Positions 42,164 through 49,269 of a stretch of DNA of 64,000 nucleotides are shown here, piece by piece. The stretch spans positions 1 to 64,000 of the forward strand of contig JAKAGT010000004.1 of NCBI GenBank assembly GCA_021825585.1. Reading direction: 5' to 3'. The stretch is from Bacteroidota bacterium (GTDB lineage Bacteria; Bacteroidota; Ignavibacteria; Kryptoniales; JAKASW01). A model generated the notes under the pieces. It was not told the DNA's origin. It saw only the letters and a list, made by a program, of their open reading frames with translations, and did not search any database. The stretch's first letter is position 1. Each line of letters opens with the position of its first letter. A program made the position numbers and the translations under genes.

Positions 42164-42505
42164 TCACTGACCAGTCTTTGGGATAAGTTGGAAATTGTAG
42201 TTATCCATCGGTCCATAGCACCACACCCAGAACGGCCAGATGAAGAAGCCGCCGATGAATGGACCCGCCTTCAGCTCTTTTTCAAGCACCACGGTCTTAT
42301 CCTGGTATCCCAGCTTCCTGAGCGTGACGTTGTATTGCGTCCAGTCTAAGTCACTTAGAGTTATCGACAACGGTGTTTTCCCCTGTGCCTGGCCGTTGAT
42401 CTCGACATCGGCTCCCTGTGGCTCAGAAGCGATCTGAACCGAAGTGCTGCAGGAACTTAGGAAAAATGCCGCGCCGACAACCAAGGCGAAAGTGAACGTT
42501 TTCAT
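42164..42505 (-). CDS. PEGA-domain lipoprotein
   Basis: 113 residues from the ATG at 42505, preceded by AAGGAGACACAA. Lipobox LSSCS at the end of the signal peptide (TFALVVGAAFFLSSC), then a PEGA domain: VQIASEPQGADVEINGQAQG and TPLSITLSDL. The C-terminus is hydrophobic and aromatic (FIGGFFIWPFWVWCYGPMDN), possibly membrane-associated. A longer frame starting at 42682 reads through a purine-rich repeat and is not credible. Likely surface lipoprotein of unknown role. Confidence 0.82.
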   Translation of the reverse strand: MKTFTFALVVGAAFFLSSCSTSVQIASEPQGADVEINGQAQGKTPLSITLSDLDWTQYNVTLRKLGYQDKTVVLEKELKAGPFIGGFFIWPFWVWCYGPMDNYNFQLIPKTGQ

Positions 42506-42682: not shown

Positions 42683-42970
42683 CTATGATTTCTTTCCTCT
42701 ATTCCAACCATATGCTTCTCCGCACTCCGGACAAAACCTTGCCGTGGGATAATAGATAGGCTCGCCGCATCGCGGACATACTTCGATGAGCTTCGAGCCG
42801 CAAGATGTGCAGAACTGCTGATTCTCAAAAGAGGCCGAGAAATTTCCGCAGGACTGACAGATTCGAAAGCGCTCCGGTTCCGAAGCCCTTTGAAATCTTC
42901 TGGTTTTATTTTTGCCCCTTAGTCCACCCGACACATTTACTTCCTTCTTTTGATTGTCATGAAAACTCAA
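42683..42970 (-). CDS. Double zinc-ribbon protein
   Basis: 95 residues. Four CxxC knuckles: CQSC (38), CTSC, CPRC and CPEC, arranged as two zinc ribbons (GNFSASFENQQFCTSCGSK, then VCPRCGEPIYYPTARFCPEC). The N-terminal 35 residues are basic. Such small proteins bind nucleic acid or protein partners. No partner is evident; it lies beside the PEGA and Uma2 genes. Confidence 0.75.
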   Translation of the reverse strand: MSFHDNQKKEVNVSGGLRGKNKTRRFQRASEPERFRICQSCGNFSASFENQQFCTSCGSKLIEVCPRCGEPIYYPTARFCPECGEAYGWNRGKKS

Positions 42971-43204
42971 TCATAATCTATTGGCATCTATCATGCCGCG
43001 CGGAAACCGCCTGAATCATTCTAATTCGGAGTCCAGACTTTGAGAAAAGAAACTGCGGTTGCTTGAGGATGAAACTCCGGTTTCCTAACCTCACTGATTT
43101 AAGCCTGGCCGTATGTTATACAGCTGATGTTTTCAGCCATGTCTCTATGTTGATTTTCGTTGAGTGGTTCGTTAACGTTTTAATACAAGCCGAGGAGAAA
43201 AGCC

Positions 43205-43750
43205 ATGAATGTCCAGGTGAAGTACACATATCAGGATCTGCTCACGACTCCAGATGACGGCAACCGATATGAAATCTGCGAAGGAGAACTTATCATGACA
43301 CCGTCGCCCAACAGAGCGCATCAGCGAATAGCGGCCAATCTGACAACTCTCCTTATGAATCATGTTAAGCAGAAAGCAAGTGGAGAAGTTTATCCCGCTC
43401 CTTTTGACGTTTATTTCGACGAAGAGACAGTTCTAGAACCGGACATTCTCTTTGTTTCGAAGGATCGCCTGCATATTATTGACGAGCATAAGGTCAACGG
43501 TGCTCCTGATCTAGTGGTCGAAATCGTTTCCGATTCGACTGAATCACGAGACAGGGGCTTCAAGTTTAAGCTCTACGCGAAAGAGGGCGTGAAGGAGTAC
43601 TGGATCGTCGATCCAACAGGTAAGATTGTCGAAATATATGAGTTGGAACAGACCGGGTTTTCGTTGTCGGGAAAATTCAGCGGCAGGGATGAAGTCCGGT
43701 CAACTTACTTCGCTGATTTGGAGTTTACGGCAAATCAGATTTTTGAATGA
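43205..43750 (+). CDS. Uma2 family (DUF820) PD-(D/E)XK nuclease-like protein
   Basis: 181 residues. Pattern YTYQDLLTTPDDGNRYEICEG at the start, GELIMTPSPNRAHQRI, then LEPDILFVS with the catalytic D and VVEIVSDST (E-x-V) of the PD-(D/E)XK core, ending KEYWIVDP. A GAGGAGAAAAGCC ribosome binding site precedes the ATG. The family is abundant in cyanobacteria and mobile regions; in vivo substrates are unknown. The lone plus-strand gene lies between minus-strand genes. Confidence 0.88.
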   Translation: MNVQVKYTYQDLLTTPDDGNRYEICEGELIMTPSPNRAHQRIAANLTTLLMNHVKQKASGEVYPAPFDVYFDEETVLEPDILFVSKDRLHIIDEHKVNGAPDLVVEIVSDSTESRDRGFKFKLYAKEGVKEYWIVDPTGKIVEIYELEQTGFSLSGKFSGRDEVRSTYFADLEFTANQIFE

Positions 43751-43766
43751 CTATCGGATATCCCAC

Positions 43767-45173
43767 TTATTCCTTCTTCACAACTTCAATTCCCAGCTGC
43801 TTTAGAGTCTTTCTCAAACCTTGTGGAGACATCCCCGCCTTCTTGGCCACCCTACTTATGTTTCCATCTGATTGCTCTAAGAGCGCCTTGTAGTAAGTAC
43901 GTTTGAACTCAATCTCCGCTTCTTTGAGTTTCGGGATTTGACCATCCGGCCATTCATGTCTCGGTCGGACAACACCGGATCGCATCCTCTTGGACAGTGA
44001 AGATTTCCTGCGGAGAAGGACGAAGTCCTCAACCTTCAGAGTATCGCCTTTCCGTTTTATTACCGCATCCTTGACCGCGCTTTCCACCGAGCGCACGTTT
44101 CCATCCCAGTGTTGGTCTAACAGAAAGACTAATGCATCGGGATCGATCTCACATCTCTTCCCATCCGAGAGATACTTGTATTTATCAAGAAAGTATCGGA
44201 CAAGAGGCTCGATGTCTTCCCTTCGCTCTCTGAGCGGCGGTATCTCAATGACGGCCTGCATGATTCGGTGGTAGAAGTCGGCCCTCATCGAACCATCCAC
44301 CACCTTATCTTCCGGATCTAGATTGGTCGCAAATATAACCCGAACCTCCAAAGAGATTTCCGGCTTTCGCGCGTCTTGCCCAACCCTGGATATGCTCTTG
44401 TACTGCATGAAGTGAAGGAGCTTTAGCTGGACAGCCTCACGAAGAGAAGATATTTCAGGAAGATAAATGGTTCCACCATTTGCCGACTCGAACTTTCCGA
44501 TCTTTACCCTGTCAGCCCCAGTGAACGCTCCGGCTTCATGTCCGAACAGCTCTGATTCTATCAGGGTTTCGTTCAGACTGGGAATAGGTACTTCTACAAA
44601 AGGTTTGTCGTTTCTCCTGCTTTTCTCATGAATCAGGTGTGCGATGAGATCTTTGCCAACCCCGGATTCCCCGATAAGAAGCACATCTTCGTCGACATTA
44701 GCAAGCCTTGCTGCCTCAAGGTTTACGCGCTTCATGGCATCACTCGCAAAGATGAACTTGTCGTGAGAAGCATCATAGTTTTCCTTGAATACCTGTGCTC
44801 GAATTTCGAGTTCTCTCTTCTCAAGAGCCTTCTCCAATTTAGCTGCAAGCAGTTCGATGTTGAAGCCCTTAGGTACGAAATCGTCAGCGCCGGCCTTGAT
44901 CGCCCGTACGGCGTTTTCGGCCTCTCCATGATCTGTTACCATCATTATCGGCAAATAGGGACTTACCTCAGCATGTATCCTTGACAACACTTCCAACCCG
45001 TCAATATCCGGGAGTTCAAGGTCAAGCAATACCGCGTCCACTGTGCTGATCTTTAGTATCTCCAGCGCTCTCTTACCCGAATTTGCCTTGACCACTTCAT
45101 ATTTCTTACTGAGCAGGGAGCCGATATCGTTCAGATATTTCATGCTGTCGTCGACTATCAGAAGTTTAAGCAT
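43767..45173 (-). CDS. Sigma54-type response regulator, Walker B aspartate missing
   Basis: 468 residues, NtrC architecture: receiver (1-120; Asp8/Asp9 pocket, phospho-acceptor Asp51), AAA+ domain (about 140-380) and a Fis-type HTH (SDGNISRVAKKAGMSPQGL). Walker A is GESGVGKD (168-175) and the sigma54-contact loop GAFTGA (215-220) is intact. Walker B reads GTIYLPEI instead of GTLFLDEI, so Pro239 replaces the magnesium-binding aspartate. It lies 124 bp downstream of the sensor kinase gene and is its likely partner. ATPase activity is uncertain. Confidence 0.9.
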   Translation of the reverse strand: MLKLLIVDDSMKYLNDIGSLLSKKYEVVKANSGKRALEILKISTVDAVLLDLELPDIDGLEVLSRIHAEVSPYLPIMMVTDHGEAENAVRAIKAGADDFVPKGFNIELLAAKLEKALEKRELEIRAQVFKENYDASHDKFIFASDAMKRVNLEAARLANVDEDVLLIGESGVGKDLIAHLIHEKSRRNDKPFVEVPIPSLNETLIESELFGHEAGAFTGADRVKIGKFESANGGTIYLPEISSLREAVQLKLLHFMQYKSISRVGQDARKPEISLEVRVIFATNLDPEDKVVDGSMRADFYHRIMQAVIEIPPLRERREDIEPLVRYFLDKYKYLSDGKRCEIDPDALVFLLDQHWDGNVRSVESAVKDAVIKRKGDTLKVEDFVLLRRKSSLSKRMRSGVVRPRHEWPDGQIPKLKEAEIEFKRTYYKALLEQSDGNISRVAKKAGMSPQGLRKTLKQLGIEVVKKE

Positions 45174-45297: not shown

Positions 45298-48200
45298 TCA
45301 TACAGCTTTTTCTATTCTTACAACGAACTTTGCGCCCACCCTGGATTCATCGAGATGGATCTCGCCGCCGTACTTAGAGAGGCATGACAACACATAGCGA
45401 AGACCGAATCCATGACCCGACCCCTTTGTGGTAAAATCCCCGGAGAGGACCAGCGATCGTGACTCAACTGGGACTCCCGGACCGTTGTCTTCTTCCTCGA
45501 TTACTATGCTCGTCGCTGTTGCATGAACGCCTACAAATATTGTTTTGGGATTCTCAGGAGAACCAAAAGAGGATATCGCCTCGATAGAATTTCGGATTAG
45601 TATTAGGAGTATTTCTCTCAACTCTCCCTCCCCAATTATGCCCCTTGCGCCTGCTGACTTATCCTCATATCCAAAAAGAAAGTCCCTATACTCGCTTCTG
45701 AATTTGCCAACTTCGTCCGCGGCCACGCGGCCGATTTCGGAAACAAATTCCTCGTCGAACATCTTCCTGAGATCATCAAGAGAAGACTTGATAGACGAAA
45801 TATTATTCAACGTCTCTTTCTGTATCCGTCCATCCAACTCCGAGGTCTCAATTGTTCTTGTCAGCTTCGCCCTCATCGCTTTGACGTTCTGAAGGAGATG
45901 CCCTGAAGCTTGTTTGAGAATCCCTGCTGTAGGACGCGGAAGTCCCGATCCCTGATCGTGAATACCACTGCCAATGATCACATCAATGGCGTCAGTAATG
46001 TTCTCGATTTCTCCTTGAACGTTTTCTATGTATTCATTCAGGACCGCGAGGAACCTGGCTTTCGGATCGTCATTGGCATCCTGAACTTCAACCCCTTTCG
46101 CCGATTGATCTACCGATACTTCGTTCTTTTGATTTGACGAGTCCCCGATTAGATCATTCAGGTTGTCCACAAAGAAAGCGAGCCTGTTCAACACAACTGC
46201 CGGTCCCTCACCGTGCGAGAATTTCCGGAGGAGCGAGTAGAGTCTTCCGTACGCCGCCCTTCTTAATAATTCTCCGCTCTTCCTTTTCTCCTTCACTCTT
46301 ACCAATACTGTGGTCAGGAGGAGTGTCAAGAAAATCGGCAGCAGATGCTCGGTTACGAGATCGTGAGATCCACGAATCCACCTGCCTGTGCTGAAGAATA
46401 TCTGTTCCAACAGATAAATGCCGCCGTCAATCCCCGCGAAGACGAACATTGCAATAGCAGAGAAGGCGAGTGGGGCCTTCAGGCCACGCGCTATCTTTTT
46501 ACTTCCGAAATAAGGAAATCTCACGGTCAAGAGAAGCAAGACAAGAATAAAAAGAGAAAGGGACTCGGCAGTCGCTGTGCGGAACCGAGGACTCATAATT
46601 AGACCGGTCAGATTCTTTCTTGCCAGGAAGTAATCCCTTTCTATTCCAGTGTGCTCATACACTGTTATGCGGCTGCCGGGAAGCACGTTGACAAACCGCT
46701 TCACACCGCTCTCAGGGAAATTGACCTCGATAGCATACTTTGCATCGGGATCCGTAATGCCAAATAATTGTGTCCTCGAGCTTGAACTCGCGTATCCGTA
46801 TGTGCTCATGACTTCTCGATATGCTTTCATCCTTCCATTCATCAATAGCTTGATCTTCGCTCCAATTCCATCCCTGTTGCTTTCATCTCCTTCGATATTC
46901 ACTTCGATGAAGTTCTTGTGTTTCCCCGGAACTGAATTCAAGTTGTTTTTGAAGAGCATGGTATGCCCCTGGTATTGCCCTACTATGGCATCGAGATCGC
47001 CGTTGCCATCCACATCAAAAGTAGCTGCGCCGGTGTTGTAACCGTTGTAGTAATCAGAGCCGGGCAAGAACTTCGCTGTTTCATCCACAAAGACCGGCAC
47101 GCCATTTCTGCCATTGCCGGTGTTTCTGTAAAACCTGATTGTTCCCAGTCCGACGACCAGCACATCAAGCCTGCCGTCGTTCTCAAAATCTCCGAATACG
47201 GATCCGTACGTGTAGGTGCTATCTGCCAGCCCCGACTCCCTTGAAACGTCTCTGAAGTGACCGTCCCCCTCATTTAGAAATAATCTATTTGACGCTTCTC
47301 GATCTCCTACAAAAATGTCCAGCTTACCATCATTATTGAAGTCTGCCAGGAGGACGGAGTTAGTTTCGTGGAATTGGCCGCGGCCGGTTCCGCTCTCCTT
47401 TGTAATGTCCCGAAATGTTCCGTCACCATTGTTCAGATAGAGAGAATTTTCCGCGTTCCATCTTCCGACGTATAAATCCGGATATCCATCTCCGTTCAAA
47501 TCCCCGAAGACAGCCGTTATGCTCTTGCCCTTGGAAGCGAGACCGCATTCCTTCGTAACATCCCTGAATCTTCCTCCTCCTTTGTTCATGAATAATCTAT
47601 CGGAGCGGACAAAGCTTGTCGCGAAAAGATCCAGATAGCCGTCGTTATTCACGTCTGCAAGGGTCACGCATTCACTCCGCATCAGATCTGTATCGAGACC
47701 CGATTCACTCGTTTCGTCCCTGAAATAGCCCCTCCCGTTATTCACGAGTACAACGGGCGGACCACTGAGATAGGAGTCTATGATATCGTCACTGCCGTCT
47801 TCATTGATATCACCTATCGCTACACTGAGGCCAAAGTTGGACTTATACAACTTGTTCTCCACGGATCTGCCGGTCACGCCATGTTGGTCTGCCATATCGA
47901 ACGTGTTGCCCGGGAAAGTCGCCCCATCTTGACTAAGATAAAGCCTGTTCTGTCCCGATAATTCTACCAGGTAGACATAGGGAATTGGGAGACTTCTGTC
48001 GAACTTACCTATGCCGACCCCATAGGTTGTGCCCGCATCAAACATCACGACCGAAAACCTCGCTGTGCGTAAGAATTCTCTATCTCGCGGCGCGACGGCG
48101 GTCGGCCACCCCCTAGCACCGACGAAGTACTTGACTACCGAAGTCCCACCTATAAGGATTGTATTCTGATTAAGCCTGGCCAGTATTCCTCTGTTATAAA

Positions 48201-49269
48201 GGGGAAGAATCGCAGCTACCTGCCAGTCACTTATCGTCCCTCTTTTCTTGGAGTACTCCCCCTTGAGTAACGACCCGGTCATCGTCAGGGCAAAGACATC
48301 GGAGTCGTTCATCGCCAAAAGGGAACAAATTTCATCAACCGGTATCGCTCCCGCTCCATAGGGACTTCTTGTGCGAATCTTGATTGCGGAATCTTCAATG
48401 ACCTTGTATGCACCTGCATCAGTTCTTGAGGCAATAAATAACCTCTTAGAGCTTAGAAAGAAAATCGTACTTGAGTCGAACATGGTGCAGCTTATCAATC
48501 CCTCATCCAGTTCAAAAGTCTTAACGCCAGTCTTATAAATATCTATCAAAGGAGAGATCCGAAGTGCCTCATTACTGGCCTCAACAATCGCCCCCTCGTT
48601 CACGGCTATCACGGGAAACTCCTTTTGATTGGGACTAGAACCGAACACCCCACCTCCCGAGTTAGAGCCAATGGGGAGGATGTGCTGGGTGAATCGGGCC
48701 TCCAATTTCCCGTTCTGATTCTCAGTTATCTTAAAATATGCGTACTCAAAAATCGTCGTCAGGAAGCCTTCGCCACGTCCAGTGAACCTGATATCAACAA
48801 GCGAATGTCCGAGTGGAATCTTAAATGCGGTAAGCCTGGAGAGTCTGTAGCTCGCGCCATGTTTTGCGAGTACCCCCGCGTATAGCGGAGCAATTGTCAT
48901 GGTTGCACCGAATCTCACCAGCTCTGGGGAAAATATCACATATTTGCCGTCGCTGCTCATGCAGCCAATCTGGCGGTCCTCGGCACGGTAGAGCACATTC
49001 CAGTGCTTACCGTCCGAATGTGTGATCGAAGTCCTTGTGTAAGCGAGTAAGTTACTGTCGGAGATTACTGTGAACCCCAACACTGGATTCACATCGGGGT
49101 TGGGCTGGACTTCGTAATCCGAATCAGAGACTGGAGAGGCGGATATGGAGCGGGTAGACGCAGTCGAATCTGCCACAGCCTGCTTCTTCATCATAAGCGA
49201 AGAGGGGCCACTCAAGAATACCACGACGACCGTAAAACCTAAGGCGAATACCTTTTTGCCAGCCTTCAT
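45298..49269 (-). CDS. Sensor kinase with FG-GAP/ASPIC-UnbV extracytoplasmic domain
   Basis: 1323 residues. Signal or anchor segment (ALGFTVVVVFLSGPSS), then a beta-rich region (50-470), six FG-GAP/VCBS calcium-loop repeats (DINEDGSDD 487, DVNNDGYLD 539, DLNGDGYPD 590, DFNNDGKLD 643, DFENDGRLD 694, DVDGNGDLD 752) and an ASPIC/UnbV domain (about 800-874). Three membrane helices (about 902-921, 931-954, 973-991) precede a coiled-coil linker and a C-terminal HATPase (N-box LIRNSIEAI, G1 DNGPGVP, G2 GHGFGL). No classical HisKA H-box is seen; His1019 in RKFSHGEGPA is one candidate. The regulator follows at 43767. Confidence 0.82.
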   Translation of the reverse strand: MKAGKKVFALGFTVVVVFLSGPSSLMMKKQAVADSTASTRSISASPVSDSDYEVQPNPDVNPVLGFTVISDSNLLAYTRTSITHSDGKHWNVLYRAEDRQIGCMSSDGKYVIFSPELVRFGATMTIAPLYAGVLAKHGASYRLSRLTAFKIPLGHSLVDIRFTGRGEGFLTTIFEYAYFKITENQNGKLEARFTQHILPIGSNSGGGVFGSSPNQKEFPVIAVNEGAIVEASNEALRISPLIDIYKTGVKTFELDEGLISCTMFDSSTIFFLSSKRLFIASRTDAGAYKVIEDSAIKIRTRSPYGAGAIPVDEICSLLAMNDSDVFALTMTGSLLKGEYSKKRGTISDWQVAAILPLYNRGILARLNQNTILIGGTSVVKYFVGARGWPTAVAPRDREFLRTARFSVVMFDAGTTYGVGIGKFDRSLPIPYVYLVELSGQNRLYLSQDGATFPGNTFDMADQHGVTGRSVENKLYKSNFGLSVAIGDINEDGSDDIIDSYLSGPPVVLVNNGRGYFRDETSESGLDTDLMRSECVTLADVNNDGYLDLFATSFVRSDRLFMNKGGGRFRDVTKECGLASKGKSITAVFGDLNGDGYPDLYVGRWNAENSLYLNNGDGTFRDITKESGTGRGQFHETNSVLLADFNNDGKLDIFVGDREASNRLFLNEGDGHFRDVSRESGLADSTYTYGSVFGDFENDGRLDVLVVGLGTIRFYRNTGNGRNGVPVFVDETAKFLPGSDYYNGYNTGAATFDVDGNGDLDAIVGQYQGHTMLFKNNLNSVPGKHKNFIEVNIEGDESNRDGIGAKIKLLMNGRMKAYREVMSTYGYASSSSRTQLFGITDPDAKYAIEVNFPESGVKRFVNVLPGSRITVYEHTGIERDYFLARKNLTGLIMSPRFRTATAESLSLFILVLLLLTVRFPYFGSKKIARGLKAPLAFSAIAMFVFAGIDGGIYLLEQIFFSTGRWIRGSHDLVTEHLLPIFLTLLLTTVLVRVKEKRKSGELLRRAAYGRLYSLLRKFSHGEGPAVVLNRLAFFVDNLNDLIGDSSNQKNEVSVDQSAKGVEVQDANDDPKARFLAVLNEYIENVQGEIENITDAIDVIIGSGIHDQGSGLPRPTAGILKQASGHLLQNVKAMRAKLTRTIETSELDGRIQKETLNNISSIKSSLDDLRKMFDEEFVSEIGRVAADEVGKFRSEYRDFLFGYEDKSAGARGIIGEGELREILLILIRNSIEAISSFGSPENPKTIFVGVHATATSIVIEEEDNGPGVPVESRSLVLSGDFTTKGSGHGFGLRYVLSCLSKYGGEIHLDESRVGAKFVVRIEKAV

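Follow-up and report, generated by a model that had tools for sequence, protein, structure and literature searches.

The locus described here raises the question of what a histidine kinase with an integrin-like extracellular half might sense, and which genes it might control. It lies in a stretch of 64,000 nucleotides (the window; positions 1 to 64,000 of contig JAKAGT010000004.1, assembly GCA_021825585.1) from a Bacteroidota bacterium of the class Ignavibacteria, order Kryptoniales. An earlier note on this DNA had described a protein of 1323 residues in which six FG-GAP calcium loops and an ASPIC/UnbV domain are linked by three membrane helices to an HATPase domain, and this composition was borne out by Pfam, hydropathy and alignment. 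From sequence comparisons we consider it likely that the protein belongs to a sigma-54 two-component module, in which a propeller sensor resembling CRTAC1 (cartilage acidic protein 1) controls surface proteins. The open reading frame (ORF) of the kinase is uninterrupted and has the following parts:

45298..49269, minus strand: FG-GAP/ASPIC sensor histidine kinase, 1323 amino acids (stop-free ORF, Pfam, homologs with the same fusion)
48070..49164, minus strand: N-terminal ectodomain, residues 36-400, probably a first beta-propeller (strands in the predicted model)
46915..48066, minus strand: FG-GAP beta-propeller, residues 402-785, with six calcium-type loops (PF13517/PF01839; structural match to CRTAC1 and integrin alpha)
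46666..46869, minus strand: ASPIC/UnbV domain, residues 801-868 (PF07593)
46300..46584, minus strand: three transmembrane helices, residues 896-990 (hydropathy; helices in the model)
45655..46242, minus strand: "HGE" phospho-acceptor-like region, residues 1010-1205 (unmatched in Pfam and NCBIfam; invariant His)
46213-46215, minus strand: putative phosphorylated His1019 (invariant in 42/42 loci)
45307..45624, minus strand: HATPase_c catalytic domain, residues 1216-1321 (PF02518; fold match to the ThkA catalytic domain)

Five stretches of the kinase matched FG-GAP_3 in Pfam (171.5 bits, cut-off 26.9), FG-GAP (PF01839) also scored above its cut-off, and UnbV_ASPIC (residues 801-868; 30.4 bits, cut-off 23.4) and HATPase_c (residues 1216-1321; 50.5 bits, cut-off 26.4) were matched as well. 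In a search of its own genome the kinase was the sole ASPIC match (36.2 bits). The calcium-type loops start at residues 487, 539, 590, 643, 694 and 752; five of them were found by a regular expression, and the loop at 694, which has Glu at its third position, was recognized by eye from the alignment. Hydropathy revealed a segment at residues 7-25 (signal or anchor) and, after the ASPIC domain, segments at 896-914, 929-947 and 972-990, an arrangement that places the propellers outside and the kinase core inside the cell. The N-terminus of the window kinase has no lipobox. Lipobox-like motifs were seen at the N-termini of the relatives L056 (FTNC), L058 (FAGC) and L059 (IIGC), which suggests that some relatives are lipidated at this end of the ectodomain.

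The earlier note had itself raised the objection that a sequencing chimera or frameshift might have joined a secreted propeller to a kinase. Nothing was found in its favor; it was rejected, and we give it next to no probability, because the same fusion recurs in six further full-length homologs from five other genomes (63, 40, 36, 31, 30 and 30% identity to the window kinase in a seven-member alignment) and, by hidden Markov model (HMM) search, in 29 loci. The full-length homologs were sought in 100 related genomes. With named records added, the fusion is retained in 11 aligned proteins down to about 28% identity; the named relatives are metagenome-assembled genomes labeled 'Bacteroidetes bacterium' and Candidatus Chrysopegis kryptomonas (L061; genome G018), which belongs to the same order as the window genome. 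Within the genus the distribution is patchy, with the whole kinase in 4 of 13 genomes (its own included) and an N-terminal piece at a contig end in G008. A single-sequence scan of genome contigs with the whole kinase found no relative, and the seven-row alignment of residues 785-1323 used as query found 10 loci. The view that ASPIC/UnbV proteins are usually plain secreted propellers agrees with the 100 related genomes, where the other FG-GAP/ASPIC-type matches were mostly shorter ORFs, many of about 500-640 amino acids. In two relatives a like ectodomain is joined to other signaling outputs, which we count in favor of a sensor role: L047 (6658-10227, plus strand) continues through membrane helices into a Ser/Thr protein kinase (PF00069, 192 bits), its ASPIC score being slightly under the cut-off (22.2 vs 23.4), and L045 (1834-5220, plus strand) has a HisKA_3 kinase adjoined by a LuxR-like regulator.

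A model of residues 36-905 was obtained by AlphaFold with ten relatives (mean predicted local distance difference test score 77.6). The predicted ectodomain consists of two consecutive all-beta regions, the ASPIC domain and a helix. Since about 28 strands were found over residues 52-382 of the model, the first region is probably also a propeller. Pfam gave no match over residues 36-400 of the window kinase, and PSII_BNR matched part of this N-terminal region in the homologs L045 and L047. The top Foldseek match of the ectodomain was murine CRTAC1 (PDB 9etn, E 9e-23), and the second entry was the BT4663 heparin sensor (PDB 4a2m). CRTAC1 was also the top VIA match, with Z 41.2 over 446 aligned residues at 2.6 Å and 21% identity, spanning both the propeller and the ASPIC domain (model 367-839, equal to residues 402-874), and phmmer of the kinase to CRTAC1 gave E 4e-16. 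Further propellers followed at Z 28-32, including integrin alpha heads at about 28, and the integrin-like character claimed earlier for the sensory half is thus retained. With an FG-GAP propeller followed by ASPIC/UnbV above the Pfam cut-offs and a joint structural match to 9etn, the ectodomain is CRTAC1-like. The VIA alignments covered mainly model residues 368-753 for the ectodomain and 224-444 for the kinase half, so that no fold is assigned to the probable propeller at the N-terminus or to the helices that open the HGE region.

The loops invite the explanation that the ectodomain itself senses Ca2+, with periplasmic calcium filling or emptying the FG-GAP loops and thereby setting kinase activity. 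We regard this as unlikely. Calcium-type loops are often structural in other propellers, FG-GAP repeats are alike in the shorter relatives that lack a kinase, and no calcium gene was found among the annotated neighbors examined. What speaks for calcium sensing is that the six loop motifs have Asp residues mostly invariant across the 11 proteins; in addition, a report on PilY1 describes a calcium-type loop that controls pili (PMC3123361).

Turning to the intracellular half, the catalytic and ATP-binding (CA) domain is intact. The HATPase box residues N1227, D1261, G1263, G1265, G1287 and G1289 are invariant in 7 aligned members, the DNGPG motif is present in the window kinase, and the fold is that of the ThkA CA domain (Z 19.4, 141 residues aligned, 2.3 Å). 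The protein therefore has the HATPase_c domain with N, D/G1 and G2 boxes that defines a histidine kinase. Between residues 990 and 1210, neither Pfam nor NCBIfam gave a HisKA-clan or other domain at E 0.1, and without a recognized HisKA-clan domain the kinase falls outside the HisKA/HisKA_3 class. Between the membrane and the ATPase, a single His is invariant. It lies in an F-x-H-G-E box and corresponds to His1019 in the window.

This His was followed through a census of 42 loci, all of which keep it. The census comprises 40 of the 49 class matches of A9, a 14-row model of the membrane-to-ATPase stretch, together with L057 and L058 from the seven-row alignment search; the nine A9 matches outside it are in G373, G321, G184, G286 (two), G331:C186, G289, G073:C19 and G192. 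Fourteen of the 42 loci had also been used to build A9, and L065, L066 and L067, which repeat other loci, were excluded from the counts. Among 391 genomes of the class, A9 had matches in 42; in a draw across the whole phylum it matched 10 of 395 genomes, of which one lies outside the class. The sensor halves vary: FG-GAP repeats are present in 29 of the 42 loci, 28 of them with ASPIC, which answers the HMM search for the same architecture suggested earlier, and PAS domains were found in the three intracellular members run through Pfam (L076, L084 and L085).

The N-box Asn is kept in 38 of the 42 loci, the D-box Asp in 38, and both in 34. In L081 (3435-7709) and L082 (2732-6973), a Reg_prop/Y_Y_Y sensor with a complete HisKA-HATPase kinase is followed by an HGE region whose ATPase has decayed and whose His is intact. 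L093 likewise has HisKA-HATPase and then an HGE region that has lost the ATPase motifs and kept the His, and the contig-end fragment L092 shows an equal loss of motifs with the His intact. These four members with a second HGE-type domain adjoin NtrC and zinc-ribbon genes. Since decay of the ATPase has left the His in place, the HGE region may serve in phosphotransfer to the regulator. The same four loci also lend something to the idea that the HGE-CA core is mainly a phosphotransferase or phosphatase, for which ChpT and Spo0B offer parallels, the real kinase being located elsewhere. We give this idea a low probability, since both the N-box Asn and the D-box Asp are retained by the window kinase, as they are at 34 of the 42 loci, and the window protein has no second kinase domain.

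Under the favored reading, the kinase passes its signal to genes located downstream of it, which are arranged as follows:

43767..45173, minus strand: NtrC-type response regulator with receiver, sigma-54 activation domain and Fis-type helix-turn-helix, Walker B 'LPEI' (Pfam; alignment of 14)
43205-43750, plus strand: Uma2-family gene between the regulator and the palindromes (Pfam)
43049..43084, strand not assigned: tandem palindromes GAAAC-N4-GTTTC and GCAAC-N4-GTTTC, 22 bp apart, putative enhancer (regulator-binding) sites
42983..42999, minus strand: sigma-54-like -24/-12 element GCGGCATGATAGATGCC, weak when considered alone; it is the region's best site and lies at 49 bp from the second palindrome
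42683..42934, minus strand: double zinc-ribbon protein, about 83 amino acids from a GTG, open frame to 42970, predicted output gene (PF12773, conservation)
42164..42505, minus strand: PEGA-domain lipoprotein downstream of the zinc ribbon (PF08308, 40.1 bits), next also in L053 and L055
37480..41775, minus strand: 1431-amino-acid CHAP protein with a type IX sorting tail (PF05257, PF18962)

The regulator starts 125 bp downstream of the kinase on the same strand, in agreement with the response regulator noted earlier, and proved to be of the NtrC type. It matched PF00072, PF00158, PF25601 and HTH_8 (22.8 bits, cut-off 22) and has the GAFTGA loop, so that receiver, sigma-54 AAA+ domain and helix-turn-helix are all present. 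An NtrC-type regulator directly adjoins the kinase gene on the same strand in 40 of the 42 HGE loci, and rpoN was found in 8 of the 8 genomes tested. The Walker B Asp of these 40 regulators is replaced by Pro (LPEI) in 19, kept in 14 and replaced by Ser in 1, with 6 unmatched by the expression used; Pro was also found in four of five NtrC-type regulators at other loci. In L053 and L055 the gap between regulator and palindromes is shorter than 200 bp, leaving no room for a Uma2 gene.

A palindrome pair lies between the regulator and the zinc-ribbon gene in eight loci, namely the window, L053, L054, L055, L057, L059, L060 and L062. The palindromes have the form GAAAC-N4-GTTTC or GTAAA-N6-TTTAC, in some cases with a mismatch, and are spaced by 21-23 bp. 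In every one of the eight loci, the best sigma-54-like site of the region, picked without regard to the palindromes, fell 49-52 bp past the second of them. A scan of the whole window for the sigma-54 consensus with two mismatches found 3 sites against 3.4 expected, which is chance level, and the site described here is visible only when the search is confined to the stretch behind the regulator and the spacing is considered. With at most one mismatch, the palindrome pair occurs once per genome in G000, G006 and G012, each time at this locus. In the genome of the window (4.97 Mb) the pair is unique at this limit and has one mismatch (gap 8 was scanned on the window's own genome only, gaps 7 and 9 on four genomes). 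Since the pair occurs once per genome, the regulator appears to serve one promoter. Matches to the wider pattern at G000:C71, G012:C12 and G003:C16 have three mismatches each; a reversed control pattern also matched the window's own genome once at up to three mismatches, and pairs with three mismatches are therefore not evidence. Elsewhere, the zinc-ribbon gene of Candidatus Chrysopegis (L061) is preceded by the full-consensus element CTGGCACAGGTTTTGCA and, upstream of this, by three GGGAAC..GTTCCC palindromes, and L044 has TCGGCATAGAATTTGCA with GGAAAA-type repeats upstream.

The zinc-ribbon ORF behind the regulator is unannotated. It has the four CxxC motifs of a double zinc ribbon (PF12773, 40.7 bits, cut-off 27.3), and eight Cys residues are invariant in 12 of 12 aligned zinc ribbons. 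By tblastn over 24 stretches, several of them duplicates, relatives were located downstream of the regulator in the window and nine other loci; in L051 and L052 they lie divergently on the upstream side of the kinase. By HMM, a zinc ribbon is present in 20 of the 29 FG-GAP loci, and four of the nine loci without it are cut by a contig end. A zinc ribbon of this type has one match in the window's own genome at E 1e-8.

What follows the zinc ribbon points, indirectly and from sequence, to predicted output operons for proteins that are exported or located at the surface. Over the 20 FG-GAP loci that have a zinc ribbon, ORFs with a type IX tail number 11 in the 71 kb that follow it, against 4 in 127 kb elsewhere in these loci. 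The tail-bearing ORF opens -13 to +11 bp from the zinc-ribbon stop in L057, L060, L062, L068 and L079, as measured on open frames from stop to stop. The window has the order zinc ribbon, PEGA lipoprotein and CHAP protein; the last carries the Por_Secre_tail (PF18962) of type IX cargo, as do proteins in L055, L057 and L095, and is possibly a member of the same output, a promoter of its own also being conceivable. Beside other sigma-54 activators, the zinc-ribbon gene heads a CsgE-CsgF-CsgG-curlin run in L102 (1646-5706) and CsgF-CsgG in L096 (5035-7717), and in L081, where the kinase is of the HGE/HTCS kind, the zinc ribbon is followed by T2SSF and T2SSE-type genes. Strong sigma-54-like sites precede the zinc ribbon in L095, L096, L098 and L102, with inverted repeats read by eye. 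In the genus mates L099, L100, L101, L103 and L104, a second zinc-ribbon type stands before a conserved lipoprotein cluster, and no nearby sigma-54 activator or good site was found at these genes.

It could therefore be asked whether the kinase controls something else, the zinc-ribbon promoter having another activator and the neighborhood being inherited without function. The zinc-ribbon genes beside other NtrC-type activators without an HGE kinase (L095, L096, L098 and L102), and those in the same genus without any NtrC-type activator, are in keeping with such a separation. This explanation is improbable in our judgment, because the pairing extends across many genera, and the palindrome pair is unique to the locus in three genomes and keeps a constant spacing.

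We therefore return to the sigma-54 module as the likely explanation. In the proposed circuit, the Ca2+-loaded CRTAC1-like propeller/ASPIC ectodomain, lying in the periplasm behind a second propeller, would change state in response to an outside cue, for which a polymer or protein at the cell surface or in the matrix is the likeliest candidate. The change would be transmitted through the three helices to the kinase core, where the conserved His1019 would be phosphorylated, and the phosphate would pass to the adjacent NtrC-type regulator. The regulator would bind the two tandem palindromes and activate one sigma-54 promoter before the double zinc-ribbon gene, and this promoter would also drive the genes behind it, encoding surface or exported proteins. 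The domains, the fusion, the pairing, the palindromes, the promoter spacing, the zinc-ribbon gene and rpoN are supported by the sequences. The presence of Ca2+ in the loops, the role of His1019 as acceptor, the binding of the regulator to these palindromes, co-transcription of the downstream genes, the direction of control, the function of the zinc ribbon and the nature of the cue are what we infer, as is the chain from kinase to surface genes, which is drawn from the conserved layout.

Several observations weigh against this circuit. The D-box Asp is replaced by Asn in four FG-GAP members (L051, L052, L077 and L079), so that not all need be active kinases. In the window, the opposite-strand Uma2 gene separates the regulator from the palindromes, and GCGGCATGATAGATGCC is weak, about one such score being expected in the region, with the constant spacing as its sole support. 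Five FG-GAP loci with room on both sides have no zinc ribbon (L058, L070, L072, L074 and L083), and no good sigma-54 site lies near the divergent zinc ribbons of L051 and L052. A type IX tail is found downstream in only 10 of the 20 zinc-ribbon loci, three of the 20 stretches being shorter than 2.5 kb.

The description of the protein as a sensor kinase with a regulator stands, and the suggestion that it senses surface polymers, Ca2+ or matrix is still conjecture. To the description are now added a phospho-acceptor region without a profile, the zinc-ribbon gene and the sigma-54 promoter architecture, which the earlier note did not contain. A broader and more doubtful proposal is that of a class-wide module for outside-in surface sensing. 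It would combine an integrin/CRTAC1-like propeller kinase, which has its own HGE type of phosphotransfer, with an NtrC regulator and with a sigma-54 operon whose first gene encodes a double zinc ribbon. The zinc-ribbon protein might be encoded first in curli, pilus/type II-like and type IX surface operons alike, and might aid their production or export. ASPIC/FG-GAP propellers are widespread, from animal CRTAC1 to bacterial secreted proteins, and their bacterial role is poorly known. Here such a propeller is wired to a kinase with a regulator, putative binding sites and a promoter, which turns the search for its stimulus into a reporter experiment. The module also displays a phospho-acceptor-like region without any profile, its small zinc-ribbon gene marks putative sigma-54 operons for surface structures in this bacterial class, and the propeller kinase may be a new bacterial way of sensing the cell's own surface.

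In the open-access literature of PubMed Central (PMC), no title or abstract opening was found that describes FG-GAP or UnbV/ASPIC joined to a histidine kinase or two-component sensor, a zinc ribbon with curli or sigma54, or curli with Bacteroidetes, NtrC and type IX. Among known systems, CRTAC1 shares the fold of propeller and ASPIC with the window ectodomain, and is a secreted protein without a kinase. The hybrid two-component sensors of Bacteroides (BT4663, PDB 4a2m) also have a propeller ectodomain. They possess one membrane helix and a fused AraC regulator, whereas the window kinase has three helices and a separate sigma-54 regulator, and lies outside their class, with no Reg_prop or Y_Y_Y found in it at E 0.1 in Pfam; the HGE loci L081 and L082 do carry Reg_prop/Y_Y_Y sensors, as these hybrid sensors do. 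The NtrB/NtrC and ZraS/ZraR types likewise combine a kinase with a sigma-54 activator, and the window CA domain matches the ZraS and NtrB structures. In contrast to them, the window kinase has no HisKA, its HGE box is without the usual proline, and the Walker B Asp of its regulator is changed to Pro. A parallel in layout is PrsK/PrsR of PEP-CTERM bacteria, where a transmembrane kinase and an NtrC-type regulator also occur with an activator motif and a -24/-12 promoter before genes for exported surface proteins. The published accounts describe the kinase and the sigma-54 regulator together with an upstream motif in two parts that precedes genes for exported proteins (PMC1569441), and RpoN-dependent transcription of one PEP-CTERM-type exported-protein gene (PMC9850573). 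The window pair is not a member of that system, because it falls far under the cut-offs of both models (TIGR02916, 17.5 vs 300 bits; TIGR02915, 288.2 vs 502.6 bits). The window module differs from PrsK/PrsR in having another ectodomain, one target promoter, a zinc-ribbon gene, and type IX cargo instead of PEP-CTERM proteins.

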